Origin: Bacteroidaceae bacterium | GTDB taxonomy: Bacteria; Bacteroidota; Bacteroidia; Bacteroidales; Bacteroidaceae | DNA: 64,000 nt | NCBI GenBank assembly: GCA_017651315.1 | Contig: JAGCDE010000005.1 | Location: forward strand, 84,706-148,705 | Reading direction: 5' to 3' | Shown here: positions 6,673 through 28,758 of the stretch, one piece after another | Layout: every line of letters begins with the position of its first letter | How positions within the stretch are numbered: the first letter of the stretch is position 1 | Program-made: the position numbers and the translations under genes | The notes under the pieces: generated by a model | The model's database searches: none | The model's input: only the letters and a program-made list of their open reading frames with translations | Told to the model about the DNA's origin: nothing

Positions 6673-6703
6673 TGTATTAGGTTGCGCCTCTACCTGATAC
6701 ACT
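6673..6703 (+). repeat. 20-bp element with dyad upstream of P1 (possible recombination or regulatory site)
   Basis: The 20 bases gcgcctctacctgatacact (6684-6703) recur exactly, in inverted orientation, at 28739-28758, about 100 bp upstream of the paralogous gene P3. In this copy the element is also half of a dyad: tgtattaggt (6673-6682), a 9-base spacer, then acctgataca (6692-6701), 10-bp arms with one wobble mismatch. Two ~10-bp arms around a short spacer is the general layout of a tyrosine-recombinase crossover site, and also of a transcription-factor operator. The left arm is not conserved at the P3 copy. Confidence 0.45.
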
Positions 6704-6780
6704 TTTATGATTCGATTCACTTTTCAGAATGACAGGAAATTTTACTAAATATATTTTTACAGTGAATACAAATTATTTTT

Positions 6781-6804
6781 TACCTTATTATTAACTAAAA
6801 GTTT
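6781..6804 (+). promoter_or_regulatory. Conserved untranslated leader of P1
   Basis: The 24 bases ending 5 bases before the P1 start are identical to 28643-28666 (opposite strand) upstream of P3, and the core tattattaactaaaa recurs at 10811-10825 upstream of P2. It is A-rich with no Shine-Dalgarno sequence, as in highly translated Bacteroidota genes. Confidence 0.6.
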
Positions 6805-6809
6805 AATTT

Positions 6810-9800
6810 ATGAAAAAACGTGACTTATTGATTGCAGGAGCGCTTCTGTTTGGCTTCGGCCTAAACATGCAGGCGCAGACTGCCGAGGAGACTCTGTTCT
6901 TCTATGGCTTCGAGGATGACCTTGCTTCCTTCAGGGACTCCTCGAAAGCGCTTGACACCATTTTCCAGGTCCGTTACTATGAGGGTACGGACGGAAGCTA
7001 TCCATCCAATCTGGAGATAGCACATGTCAATGATTCATTGATGCTGCTCCTTAACGGTATCAGTCCTCTGGGATCACGCGGTGACTCCTACGAGCTTGTT
7101 TCTGACCCGCTCGAAGGCCATAAGGCCGAGATGGAGGCTATGGGTGCAAGCGGCGGCCTGAGCTTCTTCAAGTACACTTCGGGTGGTGAAGGTTCCGACC
7201 TTTGCAATGACTACAACGCCAACCTTTTTGTGCGTGGTATCAAGCTTAATGACTACACCTCCTACAGACTGGTGTTCTACAGCAAGGCAAGCGCTGAGAC
7301 TGCTAACCTTCAGGCCGGTATCTTCCGCGGATACTACAATTCGGAGAAAGCCATCTCCATGAACGGAGGCAGCGGTAACGAATTCATGCTTGAAAAGACC
7401 GATTTCACTACTGACCGCTGGGAGCGCAACACCTTGATGCTGTACTACCAGAATGACTCAGTGGCAAATGCTCACATGTACAACGCAGGTTACTGGTGGA
7501 CCGGCAGCTGGAATTCCACTGACCCCGAGACCGGCATTGAATACGTAAAGATTGAGCAGCCTGACAAGTATTTCCTGCGTCTGTCATTCAGGTATCCCGG
7601 TACTATCTACTATGTGGATGACATCGCACTCTACAAGTCAACCATCGGCGGTGCCGAGTTCAACGGTGACATCCTCCGTGTTGATTTCGGTTATCAGACC
7701 AACCTCGCTGATATAGCCAAGGCTGACCCCGCAGGTGCAGTCGAGCTCCCGGGTGAGTATTTCAGCCTGACAGCAGAGTATGCAGGTGATCCCTATGAAC
7801 TTGACATCATGTCGGCCGAGTACCACGATGACGGTTATCTTTACATCTGGCTGGATGATGACTCATTCGACGGTCTGGAGAATGTCCGTCTGAGCCTTAC
7901 GAACCCGACCGATCCCGCTCTCCAGCTCAAATATACCGGTTCCCTCTATCCGAAATCACTTGATCAGGAGTGGGTGGATGCCGGCAAGATCGTTCCTGAT
8001 TTCGAGAACGAGTTTGCAGTATTCAACCCTGAGGTATTCGCTGTGTCAAGGCTCTACATTGCTCCTACAATGAAGGCAACTGCTCCTGAGAACGGTTCGT
8101 TCAACCTGGATCCGAACACCGAGACCGTGGATGTGACCTTCTCGAAGGAGACCTATGCCAACCTCAAGGACGGCACCAAGGATGACTACAACGTCATCAT
8201 CAGGATGAAGGATGAGATATGGACCCCGAGCGCCTACGATCCCGAGACCTTCACCGTCACCTTCAAGCGTCCCGCAGGCCTTGCTCCTCTGAGCGGTGAC
8301 TGCGACTTCACCATCATGAACGCCCGCGCAGGTTCCGGCGACCAGTACCAGCCTGCAGCTTCTGAGACCTTCACCCTCACATTCGGTGACCTGAGCACAG
8401 CCGGACGTCCTCAGTTCTTCTATCGTTCAGAGCCCGTATGGACCGGCTCAGACCATCAGAGCCAGTGCATACCTCTGGGGTGGACAGCAATTGACGCTTC
8501 AATAGGTGCTACTCCTCAGGAAGGTACCGGTGAGACCGTTGCCGGCCGCAGCCGTATGTATTACTTCGGTGCAGGCGGTGCCTTCACACGTGGCTTCTAC
8601 ACCTGCCCGCGTGGTAACACTGACGCTGTCATCAGCTATGGAACAGTCGAGGGTTACCCGTTGGTTCTCGAGCCCGGTAACTACAGACTGTCATTCAAGC
8701 TCTTCGGTTGGGACGGAACTCCCAATGTCAGCGTTTACGTTTATCCTGTAGGTACGGATCGTCCCGCAGCGATCGGCACAGTCAGGGCTGAGCCTAACAC
8801 ACCTAACGGTACCGCCAACACAGGCCGCTATGTGGTTTCCAACTTTACATCCAAGACCATCGACTTCACGATTGACGTCAAGGGCAACTACCAGCTTGAC
8901 TTCTTCACCCCGAGTTCTGCCGGTTGGGCAGGTTCAGTGATCGGTGCCATAGAGCTGAGCAACCAGTATTCAGAGGCCTTCAAGTACATCCAGATGCTTG
9001 AGGACGCTCAGGCTGCCGCCGATGCTCAGCTGGCAAATGCCGAGGCTGACAAGAAGTACAGCGGTGCCAACCTTGATGAGTTCAAGGGTGTCATCAATGA
9101 GTACAAGGACTTCAAGCACACCGCTCCTTCGGCTTACGAGGAGGCCACCAAGACCATCAAGGATGCCACCACTGCAATGGGTGACCGCATTACTATCGTT
9201 GACAAGTTCTACAGCGAGTATGCCGCAGCCGAGGCCAAGGAAGCTGACTATACCGAATCAGAGTTCAACCAGCTCGTAGCCTATAAGGATCTCGTAGCCA
9301 AGATCGCCGAGTACAAGGATCTTGACGTGACCGCCAAGGACAACGACGCCCTGACCGCAATCACCGCTGAGGTGACCGCAGCCACCAAGGCCATGACCGA
9401 CCGTTACGACGCCATCGACAAGTTCAACAGCACTATCGCCAACGCCAAGGATACCTATGACAAGAACGCTAACCTGCAGGATCTTGACGCTCTGGTAGCC
9501 TTGAACGGCACTTACGAGCAGTACAAGGACCTTGACAGGATCGCTGTTACCGACGATGAGCTGACGGCTGCCACCGATGCAGTTCAGGCCGCCATCGACA
9601 AGGCTTCGAACGTAGCCACCACCTACAACCTGGAGACTGCACAGCTCAAGAGCCTCTATGGTCTTGCAACTGACCTTGAGGTTGCTCTCGGCGACGAAGT
9701 CAACGCTATTTACAAAGCCAACATCGAGGATGACCAGAACCTGGCCAAGCTGCTGAAGCTTGAGATTAACAAGGCTCTGTATCAGAAGCTCGCCGCTGAC

Positions 9801-10568: not shown

Positions 10569-10603
10569 ACCGGATTTATGTTAAGATAACATTCGGATAA
10601 ATC

Positions 10604-10638
10604 AGGAAGCCGGGCAGATTAATTCTGCGCGGCTTCCT
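10604..10638 (+). terminator. Rho-independent terminator after P1
   Basis: A 14-bp stem with one mismatch (aggaagccgggcag / ctgcgcggcttcct) and a 7-base loop is followed by tttaaaaaatttt. It separates P1 from P2, so P2 needs its own promoter. Confidence 0.85.
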
Positions 10639-10698
10639 TTAAAAAATTTTAGTCACGAAGTCATAATAAGGAATATATTTTATAAAAAATCACTCAAA

Positions 10699-10834: not shown

Positions 10835-13800
10835 ATGAAAAAAAGAGACCTATTCCTGACAGGTGCACTTCTCTTTGGCTTTGGCTTGAACGCTCTGGCA
10901 CAAAGTGCTGAGGAGACCCTCTTTTTCTATGGATTCGAGGATGAACTTGCCTCTTTCAGAGACTCTTCGAAAGCTGTAGATTCCATCACCCAGATCCGTT
11001 ACTATGACGGTGTAATCAGCAATGGTGCAGGAGCCGGTGTATATCCGCAGGACCTGACAATTGCCTATGCCAAGGACACTACCATCTTCCTGCTGCACGG
11101 ACTAAGTCCTTTCCGTGACGCCAATCGGCAGGACTCCTATGAGCTAATTCAGGATCCTCTCGGCGGACATCAGGCCGACCTTGAGGCTATGGGTGCACAA
11201 GGTGGTCAATATTATTTCAAATACAACTCAGGAGGCACAGGGGATGGACTTTGCAATGACTACGAAGCCAACCTTTTCGTCCGCGGTATTCAGCTTGAAG
11301 ACAACACCTCCTACCGTATAGTATTCTACAGCAAGGCAAGTGATCCTACTGCCAATATGCAGGCAGGTGTTTTCCGTGGCTATTACAACTCTGAGAGAGC
11401 AATTTCCATGAACGGTGACAGCGGCAATGAGTTCCTCCTTGACAAGACATCATTCACCACCGACCAATGGGAACGTAACACCATCATGATGTACTATCAG
11501 AATGACTCTGTTGCAAACAGGCACATGTACTATGCAGGTTTCTGGTGGCAGGATGCCTGGAGAACTATAGACCCTGCAACAGGTATTGAGTACAACGCCA
11601 TTGAGCAGTTCGATACCTATTTCCTCCGTTTCTCGTTCAGGTATCCGGCAAGAAGTTACTATCTTGATGATATCGCCCTTTATAAGTCAACCATCGGTGG
11701 AGCCGAATTCAACGGTGAGATCCTGCGTGTTGATTTCGGATATGAAACCAACCTGGGATCCCTGGCTCGCGCAAAAGCTGAAGGTGCCATTGAACTTCCC
11801 GGTGATTATTTCACTCTGACAGCCGAGTATGCAGGTGATCCTTATGACCTGGATGTACTTGCAGCCGAATACCATTCCGACGGTTATCTCTATATCTGGC
11901 TTGATAATGACTCGTTCGAGGGTTTGGAGAATGTTCGCTTAAGCTTCACGAACCCGACAGATCCTGCTCTCCAGCTCAAATACACCGGTACCCTCTATCC
12001 CAAATCACTTGATCAGGCGTGGGTGGATGCCGGCAAGATCGTTCCTGATTTCGAGAACGAGTTTGCTGTCTATAATCCTGAAATCTTTGCCACTTCACTC
12101 AAATATTATCCCCCTGCAGTTGTTTCAGTATCACCGGAGGAGGGTTCTTTCGGTCTTGGAAGCGACACCAGGACATTTGATGTAACCTTCTCCAAGGAGG
12201 TCTATGCCAATCTGAGTGATCCTCTGAATGATGATTTCAGCGTCCTGGCAAGAGTACAGACATCCCAGGGTGTTGAAAACTGGGTTCCAGCTGCTTATGA
12301 TGAAGAGACATTCACCGTCACATTCCAGCGTCCTGCAGGATCTGTTTCAGAGCTTTCAGGCGATTATGACTTCACGGTTCTCAACGCTCATACCGACAAA
12401 GGTGCACAGTATATGAAGGGCGATGACTACACTTTCTCGTATTCGTTCGGCCCTGCTGATGTTGCTCCTGTTTATCTTGGAAAGAGTGACTTCAGTCAGT
12501 ACAGTGTGGGTGCCAATGAGATTGAAGGCTTCAGCATCAATGAATATGGCATTATGAGGATACAGCAGTTCTCAGGTCTGGCTGGAAAGGCTCTTATGTG
12601 GGGTCTTTACGGTGTTAACCTCCAGAACGACCCGAAGGGTAGTGATGATCTGACAAGAGGTCCAGCCCTCTCTTATAAGATTAACGTAAGCGAGCCTGGT
12701 GATTGGAGGGTTTCCTACGCTATGTCCGGTTGCCTGAAGAACTCATGGAACGATGGTGCTCTCATGTACTTCCGCATTTATGATTCGGCTGGTGAGATTA
12801 TCTATGAGTCCAACAGAGGTGAGGACCACACGAACCTTCCGGAAGAGGGTGGTGTAGTAACCTCCTATGAGGAGTTCCAGCAGATGATCAGCTTCCCGAA
12901 CACAGGTGAATATACCTTGGTCTGGAATATGCCTAATGAGAATTCGTGGAGCGGAGGACACCAGGGTGGCCGTATTATCTACTATGTAGAGGTATCCAAT
13001 GAGTATTCATCGGCATACAAGTACATTGACATGCTCATCGGTGCACAGACATCGGCTAAGGACATCCTTGCACTTGCCAAGGCTAATCCTGATTATTCAG
13101 GTGTATATCAGGATGAGTTCGAAGCCTTGATCAACTCATACGAAGGATTCACAAGTCATGCTCCTTCGGCCTACAACGCCGCTGTGAAGGCTCTTGGAGA
13201 TGGATCAGCTGTGATGTCAGAACGTATGGGCATTGTTGACAAGTACAACGCCGAGTATGCGGCTGCCAAGGATAAGGAAGCTGTCTATACTGATTCCACC
13301 AGTTACAATCAGCTCGTAGCCTATACAGATCTCGTGGCCAAGATTGCCGAATACAAGGATCTTGACGTGACCGCCAAGGATAACGATGCCATGACAGCAA
13401 TCACTGCAGAGGTTACAGCTGCTACCAAGGCCATGACCGACCGTTGCTCAGCAATAGACAGGTTCAATGGACTGAAGTCCGATATTGAGGGATTGTTCGT
13501 TACTTATGCAAGCTATGACTTTGCCGAGGAGTTCAAGAACGCCCAGAAGGTTTACAATGAGAACAAGGATCTGGATGTCTTTGCCGTAACCGACGATGCT
13601 CTGAATGCAAGTAATACTGCTCTCGATGATGCCAAGACCGCATTCAACAACAGGATGTCTGCTGCAAATCTGCTCTCGAAGCAGGACAAGCAGCTTAAGT
13701 CTCTTGCCGCTGACCTTGATGTTGAGCTCGATGCCGAGGCACAGGCTATGGTTGACGGTGTGATGGCTACTATCCTTGAGGATGATCAGAACGTGGCCAA

Positions 13801-14575
13801 TCTCTATCAGCTTGCTATCAAGGCAAGGATTTCAGAAATGTATGCCAACTCTGAGCTGGAGGATGCAGTCGAACTGACTCATTTCATTCAGAATGCATCG
13901 TTCTACACCACCTACTCACCGAGTAACAAGATTCACTCCAATGAGAATCCTCTGCCGGGTTGGGCTGTGCTTGGTGGCTCGAACAATGACTATTTGAGAG
14001 ACCAGAGCAATAACGGTGCTGATGCCAATATTAATTATGAGGGCAGCGCAAAGAACTCAGGTATTGCTCTTGACTGGGGTTCGTCAGTCAAGATGACCCA
14101 GACCATCAAGAACCTGCCTGCCGGTAAGTACACCTTCTCTCATTATCAGAATGCATGGGGTGAGCTTACAGCTTCGACAACCAGAGGCGGATTCATATTC
14201 AACCAGAAGAATCTGGCTGGTGAGGATATCTCAGATACCATCACAGCTTACAACCAGTCTGGTGAGGTTATCCTCTACGGCGGTGAAGTTGAACTCCTCA
14301 TTGACTTGACAACCAATTCGACCTGGGGATTCTATGATGACCTTACACTTATGCTTGAGGAGCCTCTGGCCGGATATGACTATGCAGCTGCCGCAGCTGC
14401 TGCTGCAAATGCCATTGAGGATGCCAAGACAAATGTTGCTACTGTTAAGGAGGCTGTTGACGTGATGTACTACAACCTGGGCGGTTTCAATACTGCACAG
14501 CCTGATGGTGTAACTATCAAGGTTACGACCGGAAAGAACGGTGCACGCAAGGTTGAAAAGATACTTGTCAAATAA
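10835..14575 (+). CDS. Large secreted multidomain protein P2, paralog of P1 and P3
   Basis: At 1246 residues it has the same plan as P1: signal peptide (1-22, ending ALAQ), N-terminal jelly-roll ending YYLDDIALYKSTIGGAEFNG, Ig-like part (FDVTFSKEVYANL), central beta domain, helical repeats (~730-990), C-terminal beta-sandwich and the same tail ending GKNGARKVEKILVK. It is more divergent than P3, notably in the central beta domain (~540-720) and the C-terminal sandwich, where no close match to P1 remains. A short tract is almost identical to P1 at DNA level (11970-12063 against 7920-8025), which suggests gene conversion. It has its own leader (10811-10825) and terminator. The function is unknown; divergence of the putative binding domains suggests binding of a different glycan, which is inference. 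Confidence 0.75.
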   Translation: MKKRDLFLTGALLFGFGLNALAQSAEETLFFYGFEDELASFRDSSKAVDSITQIRYYDGVISNGAGAGVYPQDLTIAYAKDTTIFLLHGLSPFRDANRQDSYELIQDPLGGHQADLEAMGAQGGQYYFKYNSGGTGDGLCNDYEANLFVRGIQLEDNTSYRIVFYSKASDPTANMQAGVFRGYYNSERAISMNGDSGNEFLLDKTSFTTDQWERNTIMMYYQNDSVANRHMYYAGFWWQDAWRTIDPATGIEYNAIEQFDTYFLRFSFRYPARSYYLDDIALYKSTIGGAEFNGEILRVDFGYETNLGSLARAKAEGAIELPGDYFTLTAEYAGDPYDLDVLAAEYHSDGYLYIWLDNDSFEGLENVRLSFTNPTDPALQLKYTGTLYPKSLDQAWVDAGKIVPDFENEFAVYNPEIFATSLKYYPPAVVSVSPEEGSFGLGSDTRTFDVTFSKEVYANLSDPLNDDFSVLARVQTSQGVENWVPAAYDEETFTVTFQRPAGSVSELSGDYDFTVLNAHTDKGAQYMKGDDYTFSYSFGPADVAPVYLGKSDFSQYSVGANEIEGFSINEYGIMRIQQFSGLAGKALMWGLYGVNLQNDPKGSDDLTRGPALSYKINVSEPGDWRVSYAMSGCLKNSWNDGALMYFRIYDSAGEIIYESNRGEDHTNLPEEGGVVTSYEEFQQMISFPNTGEYTLVWNMPNENSWSGGHQGGRIIYYVEVSNEYSSAYKYIDMLIGAQTSAKDILALAKANPDYSGVYQDEFEALINSYEGFTSHAPSAYNAAVKALGDGSAVMSERMGIVDKYNAEYAAAKDKEAVYTDSTSYNQLVAYTDLVAKIAEYKDLDVTAKDNDAMTAITAEVTAATKAMTDRCSAIDRFNGLKSDIEGLFVTYASYDFAEEFKNAQKVYNENKDLDVFAVTDDALNASNTALDDAKTAFNNRMSAANLLSKQDKQLKSLAADLDVELDAEAQAMVDGVMATILEDDQNVANLYQLAIKARISEMYANSELEDAVELTHFIQNASFYTTYSPSNKIHSNENPLPGWAVLGGSNNDYLRDQSNNGADANINYEGSAKNSGIALDWGSSVKMTQTIKNLPAGKYTFSHYQNAWGELTASTTRGGFIFNQKNLAGEDISDTITAYNQSGEVILYGGEVELLIDLTTNSTWGFYDDLTLMLEEPLAGYDYAAAAAAAANAIEDAKTNVATVKEAVDVMYYNLGGFNTAQPDGVTIKVTTGKNGARKVEKILVK

Positions 14576-18132: not shown

Positions 18133-18139
18133 AGAGAAA

Positions 18140-18475
18140 TCAGTTACCGTAATAATTACTCATCATAGAATAGACACCCAGTTCATCGGTTGACATTGAC
18201 TGGAAAACCTCGTCAATACTGGCACACTGGGAGATGCTTTCGTAATCGGGGATATTAGGTCCGCCGACCTTGAACGGATGGATGAGCAGCAGGGCCACGG
18301 CAGCTGCACTTGCTGCGCTGGCGAACAGGACATAGATCCTGCGCTCCTTCTTATGCCGCTTCTGTTGCTCAACGGAAATCTTAGACACAACCCTCTCGGT
18401 CAAGTCATCCAGGAAATGTTCGGGCATCTTGTAAGGCATTTCCCTACTCAGCCCTTCGAGATCAAACTCTTTCAT
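18140..18475 (-). CDS. Small single-span membrane protein, likely anti-sigma factor
   Basis: The protein has 111 residues: a charged cytoplasmic N terminus of ~50 residues (with EQQKRHKKERR just before the membrane), one transmembrane helix (VLFASAASAAAVALLLIHPF), and a short ~40-residue outer part. It overlaps the sigma factor gene by 4 bases (ATGA), so translation is coupled. Position, topology and coupling fit an anti-sigma factor holding the upstream ECF sigma at the membrane. No zinc-binding anti-sigma motif (HxxxCxxC) is present, so the call rests on context. Confidence 0.6.
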   Translation of the reverse strand: MKEFDLEGLSREMPYKMPEHFLDDLTERVVSKISVEQQKRHKKERRIYVLFASAASAAAVALLLIHPFKVGGPNIPDYESISQCASIDEVFQSMSTDELGVYSMMSNYYGN

Positions 18476-19062
18476 AGCTCATGTTCTGTTATATATTCCT
18501 TAATTTTCTGTACAGCATAATGATAATTGGTCTTGAGCGTGTTGACGCTGTCGCCCACAATCTGGTGTATCTCCTCATAACTCTTATCCTCATAGTATCT
18601 GAGGTTGAACACCATCTTCTGTTTTGTCGGGAGCAATGCAATCGCCTCCTGCAGCAAAATCAGTGTCTCGTCTGCATCGGGGCTTGCCTCTGCCCTCACA
18701 CTGTCCTTAAGCGAATCTCCCAAATCATCGACCGACATGCTGTAGCCTGCACGGTTCTTGAGAAGCTTGAGACTTTCGTTTGTCGCTATCTTGTATAGCC
18801 AGGATGAGAGGGGAAACTCGTTTGAATAGGTACTGCGGTACTTATAAACGTTTATCATAGTCTCCTGAAGAGCATCCTCGGCATCATCGTGTGCCACCAC
18901 CATCCTACGGATATGCCAATACAGGGGTTCACCGTATTTCTTCATGATGAGGCGCACAGCCTCCTCCACGTGATTGTCATCACACAGCAGACGGGCAATG
19001 GATTCATCGCTCACTGAAAGAGATCCCTGACTGTTCATGCTGTCACTTCGATCACGTTTCAT
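18472..19062 (-). CDS. ECF-type RNA polymerase sigma factor
   Basis: This 196-residue protein has sigma region 2 (DDAEDALQETMINVYKYRS, then FPLSSWLYKIATNESL) and region 4 (LPTKQKMVFNLRYYEDKSYEE, then SVNTLKTNYHYAVQKIKEYI). It would redirect RNA polymerase to a small set of promoters, released from the membrane protein encoded next. The first ~30 residues form a short extension before region 2. It is the first gene of a three-gene leftward operon. The GH30-GH43-GH43 genes lie just upstream in the same direction, separated by a hairpin. Whether it controls the polysaccharide locus or envelope stress cannot be decided from sequence. Confidence 0.92.
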   Translation of the reverse strand: MKRDRSDSMNSQGSLSVSDESIARLLCDDNHVEEAVRLIMKKYGEPLYWHIRRMVVAHDDAEDALQETMINVYKYRSTYSNEFPLSSWLYKIATNESLKLLKNRAGYSMSVDDLGDSLKDSVRAEASPDADETLILLQEAIALLPTKQKMVFNLRYYEDKSYEEIHQIVGDSVNTLKTNYHYAVQKIKEYITEHEL

Positions 19063-19203: not shown

Positions 19204-20838
19204 TCAATATGCTTCCTGACGGAAATAGTCAAAATCAGCATAGCCACCGGCCTGTTTGGTGCAGAAACTGTACAGACCAGTGCGGTATCCGGTGAAGTAG
19301 TCCAGGCTGAAAGACATCTGGAGTGTAGCATCCACATCCTTCCAGTCCTTGCCGTCTAAGGAATAGCTCATGAAAGCCTGGTCGGCACGCTCGCCCTCGG
19401 CCTGCGGAGTGAAGACATAGCGTATCTTGAGCCAAACCTTGTCCTGGGTGAGAGCCACACGGAGAGCTTCAGTATCGGGACTGGGAGCGTTTTCAGCCTG
19501 CGGTCCGGGACGGCGGCGCCCCATGTTGCGGTGAGTCATGGCTACCAGGCTCTTGGAGCCGTTGTCATCCACCTCAACACCTATAGTGCAGTAGTTGCTC
19601 TGGAAAGCAATAATACCGGCTCTGTCACCGGGTTTCATGCCTGAGGCGTCCAAAAGTACCTCGCTGTAGCAGCGGGGACCTACAGTGCGCTGGGTGAGGG
19701 TGTTGCGGGCATTCATCACGTTTGTGGCAATCTGTCCGGTCTTGAGACGGAGCCATCCCTTGCGCTCGGTCACTGACCATGCGCTGTTGTCAGGCTTGTG
19801 GTTCCACTGCCAGACCAGATCAAGCTCGTTCTTCTTATAGTTGAACTCGTCATTGTCCCAGGTGCGGTTCTTGCCGCTCTCCGGCAGGTTCACGGTAAAC
19901 TGCTTTACAGGTTTTGTGTCATCGCCAAGGATGGGCCAGCCATCCACCCATGTCACAGGCTGGAGAGTGGGGATACGGCCCACTGCACCGTGATCCTGGA
20001 ACATCATGGCATACCAGTCACCTTTCTGAGTCTCAATTATACCGCCCTGAGCCACACCGTCACCACGGCCGTCAAACGGACCGCTCAGAATGACCTTCCT
20101 CTCGTATGGACCAAACAGATCCTTGGAGCGCCAGCAGGTTTCGGTACGGACACCGCCGCTCGGCCAGTCAATCTCAAGGATGTAGTAGTAATCACCTATA
20201 TGATAAATATGAGCACCCTCGGCACGCAGGTTGAAACCCTGACGCGGGGAGTCAATCAGGACTTTCTCCTGAGCCCCGGCCTTGATGGCTGAGCCGTCCG
20301 GCTCCAGCTCAATGATACGGATCTCACCGTTACCCCATACTACATAGAGATGTCCGTCCTCGAACAGCATGGATGCATCGTGGAACGAACGGTTGATGAC
20401 CGAGCGTTCCCAGTTGCTCTTGGTGATGTCCTTGGTCCTGTATATGTAGGTCTTACCCTGGTCATTGGCTATGAAGAGTGCATAGAAGACACCTTTCTCA
20501 TAACGGAGTGAGGTGGCCCACTGGCCTTTGCCGTAGGCGTTGCGGCCGTTACGGAGGTTATAGACATCGTCATCCTCGATATAGTCGCATACGTAACTTA
20601 TGATTTCCCAATGAACAAGGTCCTTGGAATGCATAATGGGCACACCGGGGCAGAAATACATGGTGGTGCTCACCATGTAGTAGTCATCACCGACGCGGAT
20701 CCAGTCGTTGTCCGGGATGTCGGTATATGTGAGCGGGTTCACGCACTCGGTCACCTTGTTGCCGGTAGAGCAGCCTGAAGTGGTCAGGACTGTCAGGAAA
20801 GCGGCGGCTAAAAGCAGTCTGTGGAGTTTCATAGTCAT
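19204..20838 (-). CDS. GH43-family lipoprotein beta-xylosidase or arabinofuranosidase
   Basis: This 544-residue lipoprotein (lipobox TTSGC, Cys23 from the first Met) has a five-bladed beta-propeller of GH43. The three catalytic acids can be placed: Asp43 (IPDNDWIRVGD), Asp154 (FHDASMLFEDG) and Glu207 (NLRAEGAHIY). Residues ~340-540 form a second beta-sandwich typical of two-domain GH43 xylosidases. The start overlaps the stop of the upstream GH43 gene (ATGA), so translation is coupled; an alternative Met two codons later gives a slightly shorter signal. It would remove xylose or arabinose from oligosaccharides in the periplasm or at the surface. The subfamily resembles GH43_12-like proteins; exact specificity is uncertain. 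Confidence 0.88.
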   Translation of the reverse strand: MTMKLHRLLLAAAFLTVLTTSGCSTGNKVTECVNPLTYTDIPDNDWIRVGDDYYMVSTTMYFCPGVPIMHSKDLVHWEIISYVCDYIEDDDVYNLRNGRNAYGKGQWATSLRYEKGVFYALFIANDQGKTYIYRTKDITKSNWERSVINRSFHDASMLFEDGHLYVVWGNGEIRIIELEPDGSAIKAGAQEKVLIDSPRQGFNLRAEGAHIYHIGDYYYILEIDWPSGGVRTETCWRSKDLFGPYERKVILSGPFDGRGDGVAQGGIIETQKGDWYAMMFQDHGAVGRIPTLQPVTWVDGWPILGDDTKPVKQFTVNLPESGKNRTWDNDEFNYKKNELDLVWQWNHKPDNSAWSVTERKGWLRLKTGQIATNVMNARNTLTQRTVGPRCYSEVLLDASGMKPGDRAGIIAFQSNYCTIGVEVDDNGSKSLVAMTHRNMGRRRPGPQAENAPSPDTEALRVALTQDKVWLKIRYVFTPQAEGERADQAFMSYSLDGKDWKDVDATLQMSFSLDYFTGYRTGLYSFCTKQAGGYADFDYFRQEAY

Positions 20839-22187
20839 TCGAATGTGAGCCAGTCAACTTGAACCTTGCCTGCAGTAGCCATACGGACTTTCAGATGGTG
20901 GATACCCTTCTTTGCACCCGAAACCTTGCCTGATACTGTCACGAACTGACGGTCAGCGGGAACATCGACAGTAGCTATGACATTGTCATCCTGGAGAATC
21001 TCAAGAGTACCGGCCGACGGGGGAACAACCTTGACGGTAACCTTCTTGGGAGCTTTCTTGAAATCAACGGTATTGTACTTGGCCCATGCGCCCTTCTCGT
21101 AGAACACGGTCTTCCAGCCGGCGAAATAGTTGCTCGGCTCAAGATAGGCGATAGAGTCACCGGAAGCGCTCAACTGGGTGTAGCGGTCAAGCTGGATCTG
21201 ACTCTTGGAGTCAGTCACGCCTATTCCGCGCAGGGTGGGCTTGACCATACGGATGGTGCCGTCGGGCTCAAAGAAAATACTGTCGGCGCATACTGAGCGG
21301 TTCTTGTCAAAATCGGGTGAGAACTCATTGTGGTGGTAGAACAGGTATGTCTGGCCCTTGAACTCGATAATCGAGTGGTGGTTGGTCCAGCAATGGTTGG
21401 CATGCTCCTCAAAGAATACTCCCATGAACTTGTAGGGACCGAAGATGTTGTCGGCCATGCAGTATGCGAGAACCTCCTCCACATCGCGTGCCCACGGGAA
21501 GGTCATGTAGTACTTGCCGTTGTGCTTGTAGAGGTACGGACCCTCCACAAGACCCTTGGTGGGAACCTCCTCCACGCGGTGGCGGTCAGCGGGATCGGTA
21601 GATATTGACTTCCAGTCAGGGTTCAGCTTGGTGATGGTTATACCAGGCATTACCAGATAGCCGGTTCCGTCATCGTCAACAAAGATGCAGGGGTCGATAC
21701 CGCCTACACCCTCGATCGGGGTGGCCTCCGGAGTATAGGGGCCTTCGGGATAATCCGATGTGCAGATACCTACGCGGTTGCCGCCGAATCCACGGCGTCC
21801 GTCGGCGCTCGGCTGCGGTTTGGCTCCTGCGGGGAAGAAGAAATAATACTTGCCGTTGTTGGGGTTCTGCTTGCAGTCGGGCGCCCACATGGAATAACCG
21901 GATGCGTTCACCCATGGTGCGCTCCACTGATCGACAATCATGCCGTTGTCGGTCCAGTCGGTCAGGTTGCTTGAAGAGAACACATGATAGTCAGCCATGC
22001 AGAACCAATCCTTGCGGGCATATTCTGCAGGAGCCTTGATGTCATGCGACGGGAATACATACACTTTGTCACCCACCACAAGCGCGGAGGGGTCGGCCGA
22101 GAACTGGTCCCTTACGATGGGGTTCTGTGCCGATACTGCTGCCGACGCTAACGCCACAACAGCCATAGTCAGAAATCTTGCTTTCAT
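20835..22187 (-). CDS. GH43-family enzyme with C-terminal CBM6-like domain
   Basis: This 450-residue protein has a signal peptide (residues 1-20, AAVSA). The GH43 catalytic acids appear as Asp32 (SADPSALVVGD), Asp165 (GGIDPCIFVDDDG) and Glu215 (LVEGPYLYKHNGKYY). Residues ~325-450 match a CBM6-like jelly roll (YTQLSASG near the start; KKGIHHLKVRMATAGKVQVDWLTFE at the end in two stretches). GH43-CBM6 enzymes act on xylan side chains or xylo-oligosaccharides. It follows the GH30 gene by 18 bases and is translationally coupled to the next GH43, so GH30-GH43-GH43 form one operon. Confidence 0.9.
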   Translation of the reverse strand: MKARFLTMAVVALASAAVSAQNPIVRDQFSADPSALVVGDKVYVFPSHDIKAPAEYARKDWFCMADYHVFSSSNLTDWTDNGMIVDQWSAPWVNASGYSMWAPDCKQNPNNGKYYFFFPAGAKPQPSADGRRGFGGNRVGICTSDYPEGPYTPEATPIEGVGGIDPCIFVDDDGTGYLVMPGITITKLNPDWKSISTDPADRHRVEEVPTKGLVEGPYLYKHNGKYYMTFPWARDVEEVLAYCMADNIFGPYKFMGVFFEEHANHCWTNHHSIIEFKGQTYLFYHHNEFSPDFDKNRSVCADSIFFEPDGTIRMVKPTLRGIGVTDSKSQIQLDRYTQLSASGDSIAYLEPSNYFAGWKTVFYEKGAWAKYNTVDFKKAPKKVTVKVVPPSAGTLEILQDDNVIATVDVPADRQFVTVSGKVSGAKKGIHHLKVRMATAGKVQVDWLTFE

Positions 22188-22205: not shown

Positions 22206-24731
22206 TTATTGAATTATAGTTTTCCTTACCTTGCGGGTACCGTCAGGATAGACGGTCTCCTCCATGTATATTCCCTTTCCCGGTTCAGGTTCAAGGCACT
22301 CCCTGCCGTTAAGGTAATAGAGCCTGAGCGTAGCACCGGCATCTGACACAGGAAGTTGCCGTACGCCTGTAGCTACCTTGAATGATACCGTGAACGATAT
22401 CGGCTCCTTGACCTTCACGGAGTAGCTGTTGGCTGTAACCGATGCGGTCACATCCGTTCCGTTCATGATCAGCCTGTCAAGTTCAAACCCCTCATCGGGA
22501 ACTATGGTAAGCTTTACGGACCTGTTGTAAAGCACGCTTCCGGCATTCAGTGTCGCACTGCCGTGTTCCCCGCAATCAACCGTCACGCTTATCAAAGACT
22601 GTTCGAAACGGGCCTCGAGGGTTCTGTCACCCTTTATAACGAAGGTATATTCCAAATCGGAGCATACCAGGGAGTCTTTCTCATACCAGCCGGTAAACTC
22701 ATACCTCTCCTTTGAGACATCGGCCACCACAGTGATGGTATCGAGATATCTGGTGTCGGGATTTATGACAGAACCTTTTATATGAGCCCCGCCTCCGAAA
22801 GTTGACTTGAGAGTGATGTTGAAATTCCGTCCGATGAAACGGGGTCTTACGGTAACCGGTCCGGTCACGCATATCCTGAGGACGGAATCCTCAGTCACGA
22901 CAAGGGAGTCCCCTAACTCCCATCCCGACACGCAGTAGCCCCAGTCGGGAACGGCTTTCAGGAACGCTGAGTCACCATGTGCATACTCCCCTGTGCCCTC
23001 AACTCCTCCAAAGGCGGTCTCAGCTGCTTTGACAAGGTAGCGGTTAATCTCCACTATGGCATTGAAGGTCATGTTCCCCTTTGCGGTTCCCGTGTATGGA
23101 TTGGAGAATAGGGTGTCACCGGTCTCTGTAACCCAGAAGAGGAAACGGTAGCCTTCCTCCGGTTCGGCAAGGATTGTGAACGGCTCCCCCTCATCATATA
23201 TACCCGAACCGGTCACCACAACACCCTTGACCGGGGGTATTGCTACACCATATATATTATCGGTGCTGAAAAGAGCCGTGAGTCTTATATCGTTCTCCAC
23301 CTCGAAACTTAGGGTAGGGTTGCTGCCTATTACCATGGTATCGGCCATCCAGCAGATGAACCTGCTTCCCTCGGCGGGAACAGCCGTTATTACAGCTGTG
23401 TCACCGTATGGATATTTTCCGGCTCCCCCGGTACTGCCTTCACCCTTGACATCGAGGAGGACCTCCCCCATGGTGGCCCTCGCGAAAACGAAAGTGCACA
23501 CACTGTACTCAGGTACTTTCTCCACCGGGGCGACACTCTTTTCCGAATATGAAAGAGTGCTTTTCTTCATGTTCACGGTCTCATCGGTCACCACTGAAAG
23601 TCCGCTCTTGGTCTCGAACGGAAGCCTGAAGGTCATGTCATATTCATTCTGGGTGGGGTTCATTACCATGAATATTATGCTGTCACCGGTAACGGAACGG
23701 TAGGCCGAGCCATAAACCCCGCTTGTTCCGCTGAACGAATGCTGGATGCGTGTGGTTCCTGACACATACTTTGCAAAATGTGACAGAATGTATCCCCGCT
23801 TGGTTATCTGTCCGTTCACGGTGCCGTAGTTACCGTCGCCCATGCATCCGTAGTAACGTTTGAGCGAATAGTGGACCCATGCGCTCATGTTGGCCAGCAT
23901 GGCATCATTCACGCTTTTGGCAAACAGGAACCCGTCATCCTTCCAGTTGATGTTCTGCCCCTGATTCTCCTGACGGTCGTTTATAAGGTATTCCGTCATC
24001 CAGACTTCCTTGCCCTTCTGCTCGGCCAAAGGATACGAGGAACCGTTCCATCCGTAGAAATGGCCTCCTACAATATCGAGTTCCTTGCATGCATCAGGGT
24101 CGTTCAGGATAGGGTCTATATAGGAATGGGTGAAATGAACATCCTCCGGGCATATTATCTGTGCGTTGATCCTACTGCCATATTTCTTGAGGAAGTTCAC
24201 GAACTCGGCACTTGTCCATACGCAGCTCTGGTAGCTGGTTGACCAGTCCGGCTCGTTCTGAAGGGAGATGCCGTCAATAGTTACACCGTTGTCCTTCATC
24301 TTGGAAATGAAGCGGTTAAGGAAATCAGCCCAGTCTGCATAGCGGCTCTCAAGCAGGTGCCCCCCGTTGCTGTCGGAGTTGTTGTCTTTCCAGCTGGCAG
24401 GGGGGCTCCAGGGCGATGCGAATATGTATGCGCCGTATTTCTCGGCTCTCCTGGCATTGGCCACGGCACTGTTCCATGACCATTCGGAGTTACCTATGTA
24501 AAGACGCATTATGTTGTATCCAAGCTGGTTCTCACCCTTTCCGTACATCTTGTCTATATCGGAATCACCTAACCAGTAACTCCATGTCGGACTTGGGGAG
24601 AAACCTCCGAAACCTGACACGTGCTGGTATCCTATCCTTGGGTTCACGCTTACAGAGGCACTTCTGGCAGCCTCAGCCCATAAATGACAGAACAGGACAG
24701 GAATAAAAGTAATCAACAGACGTTTAAGCAT
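22206..24731 (-). CDS. GH30 subfamily 8-like glucuronoxylanase with C-terminal repeats and sorting tail
   Basis: This 841-residue secreted enzyme would cut the beta-1,4-xylan backbone near (methyl)glucuronic acid branches. The catalytic barrel covers ~25-420, with acid/base Glu160 (LQNEPDW) and nucleophile Glu247 (WMTEYL). The loop SLKRYYG aligns with the RRSYG loop that binds glucuronate in characterised XynC-type enzymes, keeping its Arg and Tyr. Residues ~425-790 hold several InlB-B-like beta repeats (FICWMADTM, YRFLFWVTETGD, YEFTGWYEKDS), probably spacers or binding modules. The C terminus (LYYLNGREC ... DGTRKVRKTIIQ) is the same kind of tail as in P1-P3 and CotH. It is the first gene of the GH30-GH43-GH43 operon, with only 123 bp between it and P3. 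Confidence 0.9.
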   Translation of the reverse strand: MLKRLLITFIPVLFCHLWAEAARSASVSVNPRIGYQHVSGFGGFSPSPTWSYWLGDSDIDKMYGKGENQLGYNIMRLYIGNSEWSWNSAVANARRAEKYGAYIFASPWSPPASWKDNNSDSNGGHLLESRYADWADFLNRFISKMKDNGVTIDGISLQNEPDWSTSYQSCVWTSAEFVNFLKKYGSRINAQIICPEDVHFTHSYIDPILNDPDACKELDIVGGHFYGWNGSSYPLAEQKGKEVWMTEYLINDRQENQGQNINWKDDGFLFAKSVNDAMLANMSAWVHYSLKRYYGCMGDGNYGTVNGQITKRGYILSHFAKYVSGTTRIQHSFSGTSGVYGSAYRSVTGDSIIFMVMNPTQNEYDMTFRLPFETKSGLSVVTDETVNMKKSTLSYSEKSVAPVEKVPEYSVCTFVFARATMGEVLLDVKGEGSTGGAGKYPYGDTAVITAVPAEGSRFICWMADTMVIGSNPTLSFEVENDIRLTALFSTDNIYGVAIPPVKGVVVTGSGIYDEGEPFTILAEPEEGYRFLFWVTETGDTLFSNPYTGTAKGNMTFNAIVEINRYLVKAAETAFGGVEGTGEYAHGDSAFLKAVPDWGYCVSGWELGDSLVVTEDSVLRICVTGPVTVRPRFIGRNFNITLKSTFGGGAHIKGSVINPDTRYLDTITVVADVSKERYEFTGWYEKDSLVCSDLEYTFVIKGDRTLEARFEQSLISVTVDCGEHGSATLNAGSVLYNRSVKLTIVPDEGFELDRLIMNGTDVTASVTANSYSVKVKEPISFTVSFKVATGVRQLPVSDAGATLRLYYLNGRECLEPEPGKGIYMEETVYPDGTRKVRKTIIQ

Positions 24732-24797
24732 GACAGATGTGATTTAGAGCAAAGATATTACTATTTTTCCAAAAACAAGGCCTACCGGAAAAAAACA

Positions 24798-24832
24798 ATC
24801 GGCGGAGAGTCCTGATTGGACTCCCCGCCGAT
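24798..24832 (-). terminator. Rho-independent terminator after P3
   Basis: A 15-bp stem with one mismatch (arms 24798-24812 and 24818-24832) reads, on the minus strand, into tgtttttttcc. It isolates P3 from the GH30 operon, which therefore needs its own promoter in the next ~60 bp. Confidence 0.88.
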
Positions 24833-24854
24833 ATTGTCATTCAGGTTAATCAGG

Positions 24855-27800
24855 TTACTTTACAAGAATCTTCTCAACCTTACGTGCACCGTTCTTCCCG
24901 GTGGTAACCCTGATGGAGATACCCTCAGGCTGTGAGGTGCCGATACCGCCCAGGTTGTAGTACTTCACGTCGGCATCTGACTCGACAGGAGCAACCTTTG
25001 TCTTGATTTCGGCTATCTCGGCATCAATCTTAGCAATCTCAGCGGCGTAGTCAACAGGATCAACGGAGATCAGGGTCAGTGACCAGTCGTCAAGCCTTGA
25101 CCATGCGTTGCAACCGGTGTGGAGAGCGGTCAGGTCGAGCTTGTTGTCTGTCACGACAATGTTCTCCCAGAAGTTGTCAACAGCATTCTGACCCTTGTCG
25201 GCAATCAGAGTGTCGCCGTTTGCGATCACATGCTGCTTCTCCTTGTTCTCTTCACCTGCACCGAACTTGACACCCAGAGTATAGACACCGTTGGGCAGGT
25301 CAATCACGGTCTGCTTCAGAGTGTAGCTTGAACTCCAGTCAGCTGCGATACCACCAGCCTTGGCATAGCCGGGCTCGGCATAGCTACCGCCGTCGATACC
25401 GTTAGGACCGACTGCTGCATGTACGCTACCGGTTGTCTGGACGCTCCAACCCGGGAACACATCGTCAACGAACTCAGTACCGGCTATGATTCTCCAGCTG
25501 GTGCGGCCTGCGTATGCATAGTAGTAATCCTCAATCTGGTTACCGAGTGTACCCACCATATAGAGGCCGGCATTACGGATGAATCCGGTGTAGTCAATAC
25601 CCTCAGCAGGTATCTCCAACTCGTCAGCGGCGAGCTTCTGATACAGAGCCTTGTTGATCTCAAGCTTCAGCAGCTTGGCCAGGTTCTGGTCATCCTCGAT
25701 GTTGGCTTTGTAAATAGCGTTGACTTCGTCGCCGAGAGCAACCTCAAGGTCAGCTGCGAGGCCATAGAGGCTCTTGAGCTGTGCGGTCTCCAGGTCGTAG
25801 GTGGTGGCTACGTTCGAAGCCTTGTCGATGGCGGCCTGAACTGCATCGGTGGCAGCCTTCAGCTCATCGTCGGTAACAGCGATCCTGTCAACGTCCTTGT
25901 ACTGCTCGTAAGTGCCGATCAGGGCTACCAGAGCGTCCAGGTTCTGCAGGTTAGCGTTATTGTCATAGGTTACCTTTGCGTTGGCGATAGTGCTGTTGAA
26001 CTTGTCGATGGCGTCGCAGCGGTCGGTCATGGCCTTGGTGGCTGCGGTCACCTCAGCGGTGATGGCGGTCAGGGCATCGTTGTCCTTGACGGTCACATCA
26101 AGATCCTTGTACTCGGCAATCTTGGCCACGAGGTCCTTGTAGGCCACGAGCTGGTTGTAACCGGTTGAGTCGGTATAGACAGCCTCCTTAGCCTCGGCTG
26201 CGGCATACTCGCTGTAGAACTTGTCAACAATGTTGACGCGCTCACCCATTGCGGTAGTAGCATCCTTGATGGTCTTGGTGGCCTTCTCGTAAGCCGAAGG
26301 AGCGGTGTGCTTGAAGTCCTTGTACTCGTCGATGACACCCTTGAACTCATCAAGGTTGGCACCGCTGTACTTCCTGTCAGCTTCGGCGGTTGCCAGCTGA
26401 GCATCTGCGGCAGCCTGTGCGTCCTCAAGCATCTGGATGTACTTGAAGGCCTCTGAGTACTGGTTGCTCAACTCTATGCCGCCGATGACGACACCTGCCC
26501 AGTTGTTGCTCTTCGGAGTGAAGAAGTCAATCTGGTAGCTGCCCTTGGCATCAATCGTAAAGTCGAAGCTTGCGCTTGTAAAGTTGGAAACGACGTAGCG
26601 GCCTGTGTTGGCGGTTGAACTGCCGATATTCTGCTCAGGCTTGATCTTGCCGATAGGCTGTGCGGGACGCTCTTCGCCTACAGGATATACATATACGCTT
26701 GTGGTCGGAGTACCATCCCATCCGAACATCTTGAATGACAGTCTGTAGTCACCGGGCTCAAGTGGCAATGAATAGCCTTCGGTAGAGCCGTAGCTGATGA
26801 CAGCGTCAACACTTGTGCCACGCGGGCAGCTGTAGAAGCCACGGGTGAAGGCACCTCCTGCACCGAAGAAATACATACGGCTGCGGCCTGAAACTGTCTC
26901 ACCGGTACCGGTCTGTCCGGCTGCACCGCAATTCTGGTCGTAAGCTGTCCAACCGAGAGGTATGCACTGGCTCTTATGGTCATCGCCGGTCCATACGGGC
27001 TCTGAACGATAGAAGAACTGGGGACGTCCGGCTGTGCTCAGGTCACCGAATGTGAGGGTGAATGTCTCAGGTGCTGAAGGCTGGTACTGGTCGCCGGAGC
27101 CTGCGCGGGCGTTCATGACTGTGAAGTCGCAGTCACCGCTCAGAGGAGCAAGGCCTGCGGGACGCTTGAAGGTGACGGTGAAGGTCTCGGGATCATAGGC
27201 GCTCGGGGTCCATATCTCATCCTTCATCCTGACAATGACGTTGTAGTCATCCTTGGTGCCGTCCTTGAGGTTGGCATATACATCCTTTGAGAAGGTAACA
27301 TCCACGGTCTCGGTGTTCGGATCCAGGTTGAACGAACCCTTTTCGGGAGCTGTGACCTTAACTATAGGAGCGATGTAGAGCCTTGAAATGGCGAACACGT
27401 CCGGGTTGTAAACTGCGAACTCGTTCTCGAAATCAGGAACGATCTTGCCGGCATTCACCCATGCGGTGTCGAGTGAATAGGGATAGAGAGAACCGGTATA
27501 TTTGAGCTGGAGAGCGGGATCTGTCGGGTTCTTCAGGCTCAGGCGGACATTCTCCAGACCCTCGAAGGAGTCGTCATCCAGCCAGATGTAGAGATAGCCG
27601 TCATCATGATACTCGGCTGACATTACATCAAGTTCGTACGGTTCACCTGCATACTCTGCTGTCAGCGAGAAATACTCACCCGGGAGTTCCACTGCACCTG
27701 CGGGGTCAGCCTTGGCAATATCACCAAGGTTAGTCTGGTAGCCGAAGTTCACGCGGAGAATGTCGGCGTTATACTCGGCACCGCCGATGGTTGACTTGTA

Positions 27801-28637
27801 GAGTGCTATGTCATCCAGATAGTAGGTGACACCCGGAGCCATGAAGGAGATGCGGTAGAAGAACTTCTCGAACTGCTTGATGGCGTTGTACTCCTTGCCT
27901 GTTTCAGGATCGGTGGTCTTCCAGCTGTTCTCCCACCAGAAACCTGCATAGTACATGTGCCTGTTGGCTACAGAGTCGTTCTGGTAGAACATCATCAGGG
28001 TGTTGCGCTCCCACTTATCGGTGGTGAACTCCCTCTTCTCCATGTAGAACTCGCCGCCGCTCGCTCCGTTCATGGAGATAGGCTTCTCTGAGTTGTAGTA
28101 ACCGCTGAACACACCGGCATTCACGGCAGCCTCACTTGAACTGGCCTTGGTGTAGAATACAAGACGGTAGGAGGTGTTGGGTTCAAACTTGATACCACGT
28201 ACAAAAAGGTTGGCGTTGTAGTCAGGGCAGTTATCGCCGCCGAATTCGCCGCCGGAGGTGTACTTGAAGTACTTCTCACCACCCTGGGCACCCATAGCCT
28301 GCATCTCAGCCTGGTGACCGCCAAGAGGATCGGAAACGATCTCGTAAGCATCGCCACGGCTTGTGTAGGGGCTGAGTCCGTTCAGAAGCAGCATGGTTGA
28401 ATCCTTGACATAGGAGATTGTCAAGTCCTTGGGATAGCTGCTTGTTCCGTTTGATATAACTCCGTCATAGTACTTGATCTGTGTGATGGAGTCAATCGGA
28501 TTGGATGAATCCTGGAATGAAGCGAGCCCGTCCTCGAAACCGAAGAAGAAGAGCTGCTCATCCGCAGTCTGTGCCTGCGCAGTCAGGCCGAAGCCTAACA
28601 GCAGTGCACCTGCAAGAAAAAAGTCACGTTTTTTCAT
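24855..28637 (-). CDS. Large secreted multidomain protein P3, closest paralog of P1 (inverted copy)
   Basis: This 1260-residue protein has the same order of parts as P1: signal peptide (ending TAQAQ), jelly-roll with YYLDDIALYKSTIGGAEYN, Ig-like region, central jelly-roll, helical repeats and C-terminal sandwich plus the tail GKNGARKVEKILVK. Similarity to P1 is very high from about residue 290 to 1020, with runs of 40 or more identical bases in the helical repeat region, and lower in residues 30-280 and in parts of the C-terminal sandwich. Because it lies on the opposite strand, P1 and P3 form ~3.8-kb inverted repeats 14 kb apart. Its leader and a 20-bp upstream element are also shared with P1. 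The gene lies upstream of GH30-GH43-GH43, supporting a glycan-binding role (inference). Confidence 0.75.
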   Translation of the reverse strand: MKKRDFFLAGALLLGFGLTAQAQTADEQLFFFGFEDGLASFQDSSNPIDSITQIKYYDGVISNGTSSYPKDLTISYVKDSTMLLLNGLSPYTSRGDAYEIVSDPLGGHQAEMQAMGAQGGEKYFKYTSGGEFGGDNCPDYNANLFVRGIKFEPNTSYRLVFYTKASSSEAAVNAGVFSGYYNSEKPISMNGASGGEFYMEKREFTTDKWERNTLMMFYQNDSVANRHMYYAGFWWENSWKTTDPETGKEYNAIKQFEKFFYRISFMAPGVTYYLDDIALYKSTIGGAEYNADILRVNFGYQTNLGDIAKADPAGAVELPGEYFSLTAEYAGEPYELDVMSAEYHDDGYLYIWLDDDSFEGLENVRLSLKNPTDPALQLKYTGSLYPYSLDTAWVNAGKIVPDFENEFAVYNPDVFAISRLYIAPIVKVTAPEKGSFNLDPNTETVDVTFSKDVYANLKDGTKDDYNVIVRMKDEIWTPSAYDPETFTVTFKRPAGLAPLSGDCDFTVMNARAGSGDQYQPSAPETFTLTFGDLSTAGRPQFFYRSEPVWTGDDHKSQCIPLGWTAYDQNCGAAGQTGTGETVSGRSRMYFFGAGGAFTRGFYSCPRGTSVDAVISYGSTEGYSLPLEPGDYRLSFKMFGWDGTPTTSVYVYPVGEERPAQPIGKIKPEQNIGSSTANTGRYVVSNFTSASFDFTIDAKGSYQIDFFTPKSNNWAGVVIGGIELSNQYSEAFKYIQMLEDAQAAADAQLATAEADRKYSGANLDEFKGVIDEYKDFKHTAPSAYEKATKTIKDATTAMGERVNIVDKFYSEYAAAEAKEAVYTDSTGYNQLVAYKDLVAKIAEYKDLDVTVKDNDALTAITAEVTAATKAMTDRCDAIDKFNSTIANAKVTYDNNANLQNLDALVALIGTYEQYKDVDRIAVTDDELKAATDAVQAAIDKASNVATTYDLETAQLKSLYGLAADLEVALGDEVNAIYKANIEDDQNLAKLLKLEINKALYQKLAADELEIPAEGIDYTGFIRNAGLYMVGTLGNQIEDYYYAYAGRTSWRIIAGTEFVDDVFPGWSVQTTGSVHAAVGPNGIDGGSYAEPGYAKAGGIAADWSSSYTLKQTVIDLPNGVYTLGVKFGAGEENKEKQHVIANGDTLIADKGQNAVDNFWENIVVTDNKLDLTALHTGCNAWSRLDDWSLTLISVDPVDYAAEIAKIDAEIAEIKTKVAPVESDADVKYYNLGGIGTSQPEGISIRVTTGKNGARKVEKILVK

Positions 28638-28642
28638 AAATG

Positions 28643-28666
28643 AAACTTTTAGTTAATAATAAGGTA
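28643..28666 (-). promoter_or_regulatory. Conserved untranslated leader of P3
   Basis: This is the inverted identical copy of the P1 leader at 6781-6804: A/T-rich, no Shine-Dalgarno, ending 5 bases before the ATG. Confidence 0.6.
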
Positions 28667-28738
28667 AAAATACTTCGCTAATCTGTAAATATTAATTCTT
28701 ATACATATTTCGACTGCTGAAATGAAGGCGCAAAAATC

Positions 28739-28758
28739 AGTGTATCAGGTAGAGGCGC
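28739..28758 (-). repeat. Second copy of the 20-bp element, upstream of P3
   Basis: On the minus strand this reads gcgcctctacctgatacact, identical to 6684-6703, 101 bases ahead of the P3 start (P1: 106). DNA between the element and the leader is mostly not conserved, so the element has been kept on its own. The rest of the 500-bp gap up to the recombinase gene (28759-29137) shows AT-rich DNA and one terminator hairpin. Confidence 0.45.

Follow-up and report, generated by a model that had tools for sequence, protein, structure and literature searches.

A putative recombinase-driven inversion of a 22-kb segment behind a fixed susCD pair in a xylan-utilization locus of Bacteroidaceae

The DNA analyzed here (the window) is a stretch of 64,000 nucleotides from a Bacteroidaceae bacterium (GCA_017651315.1, contig JAGCDE010000005.1, positions 84,706 to 148,705 of the forward strand). 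The genome that holds it, G000, is 2.69 Mb in size and 83% complete. Next to a gene for a tyrosine recombinase (TyrR), the window has a putatively invertible segment of 22 kb (6684–28758) in a xylan-utilization locus. The segment is composed of two convergent cassettes, each with a P gene at its head, where P1, P2, and P3 are three paralogous large proteins. Cassette 1 is P1-P2-CotH, and cassette 2 is P3-GH30-GH43-GH43-ECF sigma-(presumed anti-sigma)-exported protein (GH, glycoside hydrolase; ECF, extracytoplasmic function). A pair of susC and susD homologues (susCD) precedes the segment. The features are as follows, in window coordinates.

1413–6554, plus strand: susC and susD homologues; fixed left flank, outside the segment
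6575–6605 (approximate), plus strand: hairpin 3′ of susD, operon-internal, without a T run
6684–6703, plus strand: left site, 20-bp element, exact copy; point of leader exchange relative to genomes G004 and G010
6704–6809, plus strand: P1 leader, which would move with the segment
6810–10568, plus strand: P1, 1252 aa, probable large surface protein whose C-terminal domain resembles a carbohydrate-binding module; heads cassette 1
10835–14575, plus strand: P2, P1 paralogue; cassette 1
14715–17201, plus strand: CotH kinase-like protein (PF08757, 117 bits); last gene of cassette 1
17398–18132, minus strand: 244-aa exported protein, Spy/CpxP-like by eye only; last gene of cassette 2, kept after the ECF gene in relatives
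18140–18475, minus strand: 111-aa presumed anti-sigma, with one membrane span by eye; conserved position after the ECF gene
18472–19062, minus strand: ECF sigma factor (PF04542, PF08281), inside the segment
19204–20838, minus strand: GH43, one of two GH43 genes (PF04616, GH43_C2, CBM_6)
20835–22187, minus strand: GH43, the other of the two (PF04616, GH43_C2, CBM_6)
22206–24731, minus strand: GH30 (PF02055), XynC-like, with InlB-type repeats
24855–28637, minus strand: P3, 1260 aa; heads cassette 2
28638–28738, minus strand: P3 leader, which would move with the segment
28739–28758, minus strand: right site, 20-bp element, exact copy
29012–29037, minus strand: hairpin resembling a terminator (fold z −4.2), outside the segment and between the right site and TyrR
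29138–30457, minus strand: TyrR, 439 aa (PF00589, PF13102)
30521–35590, minus strand: Fasciclin-domain protein, GH8, and FGGY sugar kinase, probably a xylulokinase; fixed flank on the right

The ORF and Pfam analyses agreed with an initial annotation of this DNA on the coordinates, strands, and domains of P1, P2, CotH, the GH43s, GH30, P3, and TyrR. Its gene list for the segment was correct as far as it went, but the ECF sigma factor gene (18472–19062) and the two small genes were omitted. It also described a complete recombinase with no other mobile genes, which holds, but the position 380 bp beyond the right element, given as the start of the gene, is the TyrR stop codon; the start is at 30457. 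SusC matches TIGR04056 with 540 bits, and the SusD_RagB match is weak (E 0.005). The nearest NCBIfam model of GH30 is XynC (NF052681; 258 bits, below its cut-off of 650). For the 244-aa exported protein there was no Pfam match at E 0.001 and a weak one at E 0.18. As for the terminator-like hairpin, three such sites were found in the 901-base stretch, where 0.6 would be expected.

The 20-bp element was analyzed by an exact search of the window, in which the 20-mer occurs as an identical, inverted pair just ahead of P1 and P3, as initially annotated. The distance from the end of the element to the ATG is 106 bases for P1 and 101 bases for P3. A third copy is absent from the window at three or fewer mismatches (mean of 100 shuffles, 0.00), and the P2 leader has no element in the same search. 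Exactly two copies exist in the window and in the whole G000 genome at two or fewer mismatches; the inner 18 bases have two exact copies in the 2.69 Mb, and the next best match has three mismatches. The left site sits in an inverted-arm context, AGGT-N9-ACCT (6679–6695), whose arms match at 9/10 positions. Is this element found elsewhere in the genus? I compared 37 genomes of the genus, G000 included. At two or fewer mismatches, the 20-mer is found in G000, G004, and G010 only and always at P leaders: with one or two mismatches, it lies ahead of P at the susD side in G004 and G010, the latter genome being 62% complete, and at the TyrR side too in G004. Single matches with three mismatches occur in G002, G004, G005, G008, and G032, the three of these five that were inspected all lie in unrelated genes, and their number does not exceed that of a reversed-pattern control (12 by hand count). 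The arms of the susD-side sites match at 9/10 positions in G000, 8/10 in G004, 11/12 in G010 (the best, with a spacer of 9), and 8/12 in G013.

The sequences on both sides of the element were then compared between species. The leaders of P1 and P3 had been annotated as shared, which is true of the last ~35 nt before the ATG; the rest of the leader differs. Outside the element, like pairs with like. The susD side of the window pairs with that of G004 (z 10.3) and G010 (z 14.5), and the TyrR side pairs with that of G004 (z 7.6), while susD-TyrR pairs give z 0.6–1.5 (120 nt). Inside the element, where z scores are based on 1000 dinucleotide shuffles per pair, the pairing is crossed. The window P1 leader matches the TyrR-side leader of G004 (z 5.4; 0/1000 shuffles as good), and the window P3 leader matches the susD-side leaders of G004 (z 3.8; 2/1000) and G010 (z 7.0; 0/1000). 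The two susD-side leaders of G004 and G010 match each other (z 7.6). Uncrossed leader pairs give z 0.3 (window P1 and G004 susD side), 0.9, and 1.2 (window P3 and G004 TyrR side), and the G004 TyrR-side leader paired with the G010 susD-side leader gives z 1.0. None of the leaders of G019, G008, and G017, nor that of P2, matches the variable part of the P1 or P3 leader (z −1.0 to 1.7). Since G000 and G004 each carry the two leader types, but at swapped places, the exchange is reciprocal with its breakpoint in the 20-bp element. A comparison of relatives had been proposed with the initial annotation, and the breakpoint relative to G004 and G010 falls at the element. This break in the leaders appears to be the trace of a site-specific inversion. 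As the P genes of G004 and G010 are cut by contig ends, the inversion of the whole cassettes in these two genomes is inferred.

A second pair of sites was found in G013. It has a TyrR of ~46% identity at the same place, between P and the Fasciclin/GH8/kinase genes, and both of its P leaders carry a different identical 25-bp element. The 22-bp core of this element has two copies in G013 and none in the other 36 genomes at three or fewer mismatches. The terminator-like hairpin at the TyrR side is present in G013, too. Thus, judging from these sequences, the recombinase and its presumed site have diverged together. In a FastTree tree of up to five concatenated locus proteins from 35 genomes, G000, G004, and G010 group together, and G013 groups with G008.

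An ECF orthologue, by which the locus was identified, is present in 34 of the 37 genomes, and 33 loci were mapped besides the window. In 25 of the 33 mapped relatives, the P gene or genes are followed by GH43-ECF on one strand with no intact TyrR in the mapped stretch, and susD is seen directly ahead of P in 21 of these 25 co-directional relatives. Five are uninformative, as no P gene is shown upstream (G030, G020, G011, G021, and G023), and three deviate (G004, G013, and G005). In most mapped relatives, the locus is bordered by the Fasciclin/GH8/kinase genes. Besides the window, three genomes show the arrangement with TyrR: G004, G010 (which has no ECF match), and G013. In its ordinary form in this genus (G019, G008, G017, and others), the xylan operon has the same genes in the order susCD-P-(P)-(GH30)-GH43-(GH43)-ECF; it differs in being one operon with no intact TyrR seen and no second, inverted P gene. 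The order that a flip of the window segment would give, described in the initial annotation as that of a regular xylan locus, resembles the order of the 25 relatives. In G014 (L150, G014:C91), the Fasciclin gene is co-directional with CotH rather than convergent, which is another rearrangement at the same locus end.

A remnant of TyrR exists in G019, which has the ordinary order. A 41-aa TyrR start of 66% identity directly follows the Fasciclin gene, is encoded on its strand, and gives way to a short, unrelated tandem repeat, GTTATGTGCCAGCC... (L158, G019:C3, 8613–9065). Two TyrR queries run against 37 loci of 31 genomes gave this one match, some of these loci stopping short of that end. The locus of G005 (L054, G005:C23, 1–17187) is oriented much as in the window, with kinase-GH8-Fasciclin-GH30-GH43-GH43-ECF on one strand and CotH and P facing. 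There, GH30 comes after the Fasciclin gene with a short hairpin between them; neither TyrR nor P3 was found in this locus, nor susD beyond a weak match. G019 and G005 may thus have lost the recombinase in opposite orientation states.

TyrR is predicted to be a complete tyrosine recombinase. Residues R275, K311, H384, R387, H410, and Y419, which I take to be catalytic, are invariant in seven aligned proteins. At E 1e-60, TyrR matches were found in 14 of 399 genomes of the family (an even sample of a larger group), all belonging to this genus. In the TyrR tree, the four TyrRs of the arrangement described here cluster with a support of 91/86 under a long-branch warning, which is compatible with one or two origins.

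Taken together, it is quite probable that the neighboring TyrR inverts the 22-kb segment at the short site in each of the P1 and P3 leaders, so that the partner of susCD switches. The inversion at the 20-bp elements proposed in the initial annotation is supported by the leader exchange at the element, by the site and TyrR pair of G013, and by the likeness of the other orientation to the ordinary order of the 25 relatives. TyrR would act on the two sites in the 5′ leaders and turn 6684–28758, and the cassette behind the fixed susCD would be swapped with the cassette behind TyrR and its terminator-like hairpin. In the state of the window, susCD is joined to P1-P2-CotH. In the other state, susCD would be joined to P3-GH30-GH43-GH43-ECF sigma, an order like that of the ordinary xylan operon of the genus. 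Transcription of susCD presumably runs into the next cassette, the other being cut off, and most likely the cassette behind susCD alone is well read. P1-P2-CotH would then be on in the window state, with the hydrolases and the ECF sigma factor off, and cells may alternate between two complements, one of hydrolases plus the sigma factor and one of binding proteins.

Several observations weigh against this mechanism. No promoter was found in the segment leaders with a promoter scan not made for this phylum, and the TyrR side of G004 gave no terminator call. The TyrR-side sites have poor outer arms (5/10 in G000, 6/12 in G004, and 6/10 in G013), and both sites of G013 are weak-armed (8/12 and 6/10). 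The exchanged leader is short, ~70 nt, its weakest crossed pair being window P3 with the G004 susD side (z 3.8), and both leaders of one genome are slightly alike (z 2.3 and 3.1). The leaders alone are visible in G004 and G010, owing to the contig ends in their P genes. Each genome shows one state by its leaders, the other orientation being seen between species only. Finally, the TyrR gene of G004 is split over two frames (L040, G004:C49, 17240–18579), which is either a decaying gene or a sequence error of that assembly.

The last two points would fit an inversion that is a past event, each species being fixed now and TyrR kept for another reason or decaying, and so would G019 and G005, which look frozen in opposite orientations without an intact TyrR. 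This is unlikely in view of the selection on the recombinase and the conservation of its sites. The dN/dS of TyrR between G000 and G010 is 0.085 (350 codons), compared with 0.080 for Fasciclin, 0.075 for susD, and 0.046 for susC; TyrR is under purifying selection between these two genomes. The sites differ by only one or two bases between species, whereas the flanks and leaders differ by about 20–40%.

Homologous recombination of P1 with its inverted paralogue P3 may instead flip the segment, with the 20-bp element being a regulatory site. As initially annotated, P1 and P3 are long inverted repeats; they are mosaic, with 69–97% identity per 150-nt step and a longest identical run of 116 bp, and the proteins are 83% identical. 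The C-terminal 777 nt of the P genes are 89.5% alike within G000 and 88.4% within G004 and 78–82% alike between genomes, and the N-terminal ends of both G004 copies are 98.3% alike over ~600 nt; the contigs of G004 stop where its two P copies become alike. Their greater likeness within than between genomes shows that the P copies exchange sequence. The inverted copies homogenize by homologous exchange (concerted evolution) and so stay able to invert that way. This alternative, also raised in the initial annotation, is right about the exchange but leaves the swapped leaders unexplained. A homologous crossover inside P1 and P3 would leave each leader with its flank, and thus the leaders observed at swapped places speak for a site-specific inversion. 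Moreover, the element occurs only with a TyrR of its type and changes with TyrR, and the P2 leader is without it. I therefore regard homologous recombination as an improbable account of the switch.

Is the element rather an operator or promoter part of a xylan regulon, beside an unrelated, stranded integrase of a mobile element? TyrR does have near relatives outside the switch among integrases of small integrative elements with DUF3987/PriCT_2 proteins (L107, L110, L112, and L115, 37–47% identical), of which L110, L112, and L115 have identical counterparts in genomes of the genus. Among six neighboring proteins of TyrR relatives that were scanned, four have DUF3987, PriCT_2, and BT4734-N domains, one has no match, and one has other domains; the loci with these domains are read as small integrative elements. 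In 8 loci of the relatives, a comparison of the 500 bp upstream with the downstream sequence gave no direct repeat of 13–30 bp that could be an attachment site. The palindromes at the loci of the mobile-element relatives look like terminators, and the inverted repeats in 7 loci are weak pairs only, none like the window arrangement. Unlike these integrases, the window TyrR is solitary, occupies a conserved position in the chromosome, and has paired inverted sites. It is not beside primase or mobilization genes, its neighbors being P3, Fasciclin, GH8, and the kinase, so that no mobile-element genes are left there. The regulatory role was prompted by loose AGGT..ACCT palindromes in the susD-P gaps of G008 (L050, 12048–12068) and G019 (L047, 16917–16936), where there is no intact TyrR, among 23 susD-P gaps compared. 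This candidate was rejected. In 697,853 bases scanned (the mapped loci and the window), there are 17 AGGT-N8..10-ACCT sites with arms of at least 7/10, or roughly one in 41 kb. These 17 include the window element and the G008 motif; the G019 motif is outside the list (6/10 by hand). The two palindromes are suggestive of relic sites at most. In contrast, the 20-mer and TyrR co-occur and co-diverge, the 20-mer (two or fewer mismatches) being present in the three of the 37 genomes that have this TyrR type, and the leader exchange breaks exactly at the element. An operator beside a stranded integrase is thus very unlikely. An assembly artefact at the P1/P3 repeat is hardly credible either, even though these are metagenome assemblies in which P copies break the contigs of G004 and G013, because the swapped leaders are located outside the repeated P sequences, three assemblies made separately contribute to the pattern, and the window contig is continuous, P1 and P3 sharing at most 116 identical bases in a row.

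Returning to inversion by TyrR, its origin can be described tentatively. A recombinase of a mobile element possibly became a resident switch that split the xylan operon into two halves, one with the ECF sigma factor of the locus, so that enzymes and regulator would flip together. Repeated loss of the recombinase might then have frozen sister species (G019 and G005) in one or the other order and given rise to some of the gene-order diversity in the genus.

Published inversion switches of Bacteroidales concern capsules, surface proteins, restriction systems, and SusCD importers in species of the human gut (PMC5729914, PMC12632263, and PMC4747536). In Bacteroides fragilis, the tyrosine recombinase Tsr0667 inverts shufflons at three SusC/SusD clusters (PMC4747536), and in region EE an intergenic shufflon places SusCD pairs downstream of an invertible promoter (PMC5729914). 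The proposed switch would resemble the SusC/SusD shufflons in that large inversions at short inverted repeats by susCD-type genes place alternative surface-protein genes for expression. In those shufflons, susCD-type pairs are exchanged, whereas in the window susCD would be fixed outside the sites and the downstream hydrolases and ECF sigma factor or P and CotH exchanged. The shufflons also have multiple inversions, whereas the window has two sites only (two or fewer mismatches). Mpi and Tsr19 of B. fragilis are promoter inverters, and Tsr19 lies near one of its sites (PMC4747536 and PMC12632263). They resemble the proposed switch in site-specific inversion and, for Tsr19, in the proximity to its own site, as with TyrR. 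They differ in that promoter segments are turned there, while 22 kb of coding sequence would be turned here, with no promoter identified in the leaders. Among the matches listed in the literature search, with subscription papers mostly outside its reach, there was no invertible segment exchanging hydrolases downstream of a fixed susCD. A fixed transporter with exchanged downstream genes would set this locus apart from the known Bacteroides inversion switches. If the switching is true, otherwise identical cells would differ in cutting xylan versus mainly binding it, and the locus would be a direct test bed for division of labor and bet-hedging in fiber breakdown. The ECF sigma factor would be exchanged along with the downstream enzymes while the importer stays. 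The diverged site with its diverged recombinase would offer two natural recombinase-site pairs for comparison. The host group includes one close relative named from the water-buffalo rumen.

The P proteins were analyzed by profiles, as P1–P3 have no Pfam family at E 0.001 and sub-threshold matches only, up to E 5. Among PDB entries, the C-terminal profile (from 16 of 26 sequences) matches the modules 9fli (E 3e-11) and 2xom (E 7e-8), both attached to galactanases and presumably of family CBM61; its match to BT_4661 (4ak1, E 0.002) is weak. The profile of the N-terminal half (from 28 of 40 sequences) has no PDB relative at E up to 1. Since the C-terminal part matches galactanase-attached modules, P is probably a large glycan-binding surface protein; the neighboring genes point to xylan as its substrate. 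The tails of P1–P3, GH30, and CotH resemble sorting tails by eye, and no NCBIfam match to type 9 secretion sorting tails was found for them at E 0.001. Other full-length P paralogues exist outside the locus, at G000:C18:31604-35344 (52% to P1) and G000:C55:47204-50941 (39%).

The hairpin after susD, on the susD flank, was not called as a terminator in the terminator scan. Its fold z is −5.1 in the window, −4.0 in G004, and −5.8 in G010. A hairpin directly 3′ of susD is readable by eye in most relatives' susD-P leaders, with a changing sequence. It looks like a conserved operon-internal RNA hairpin.

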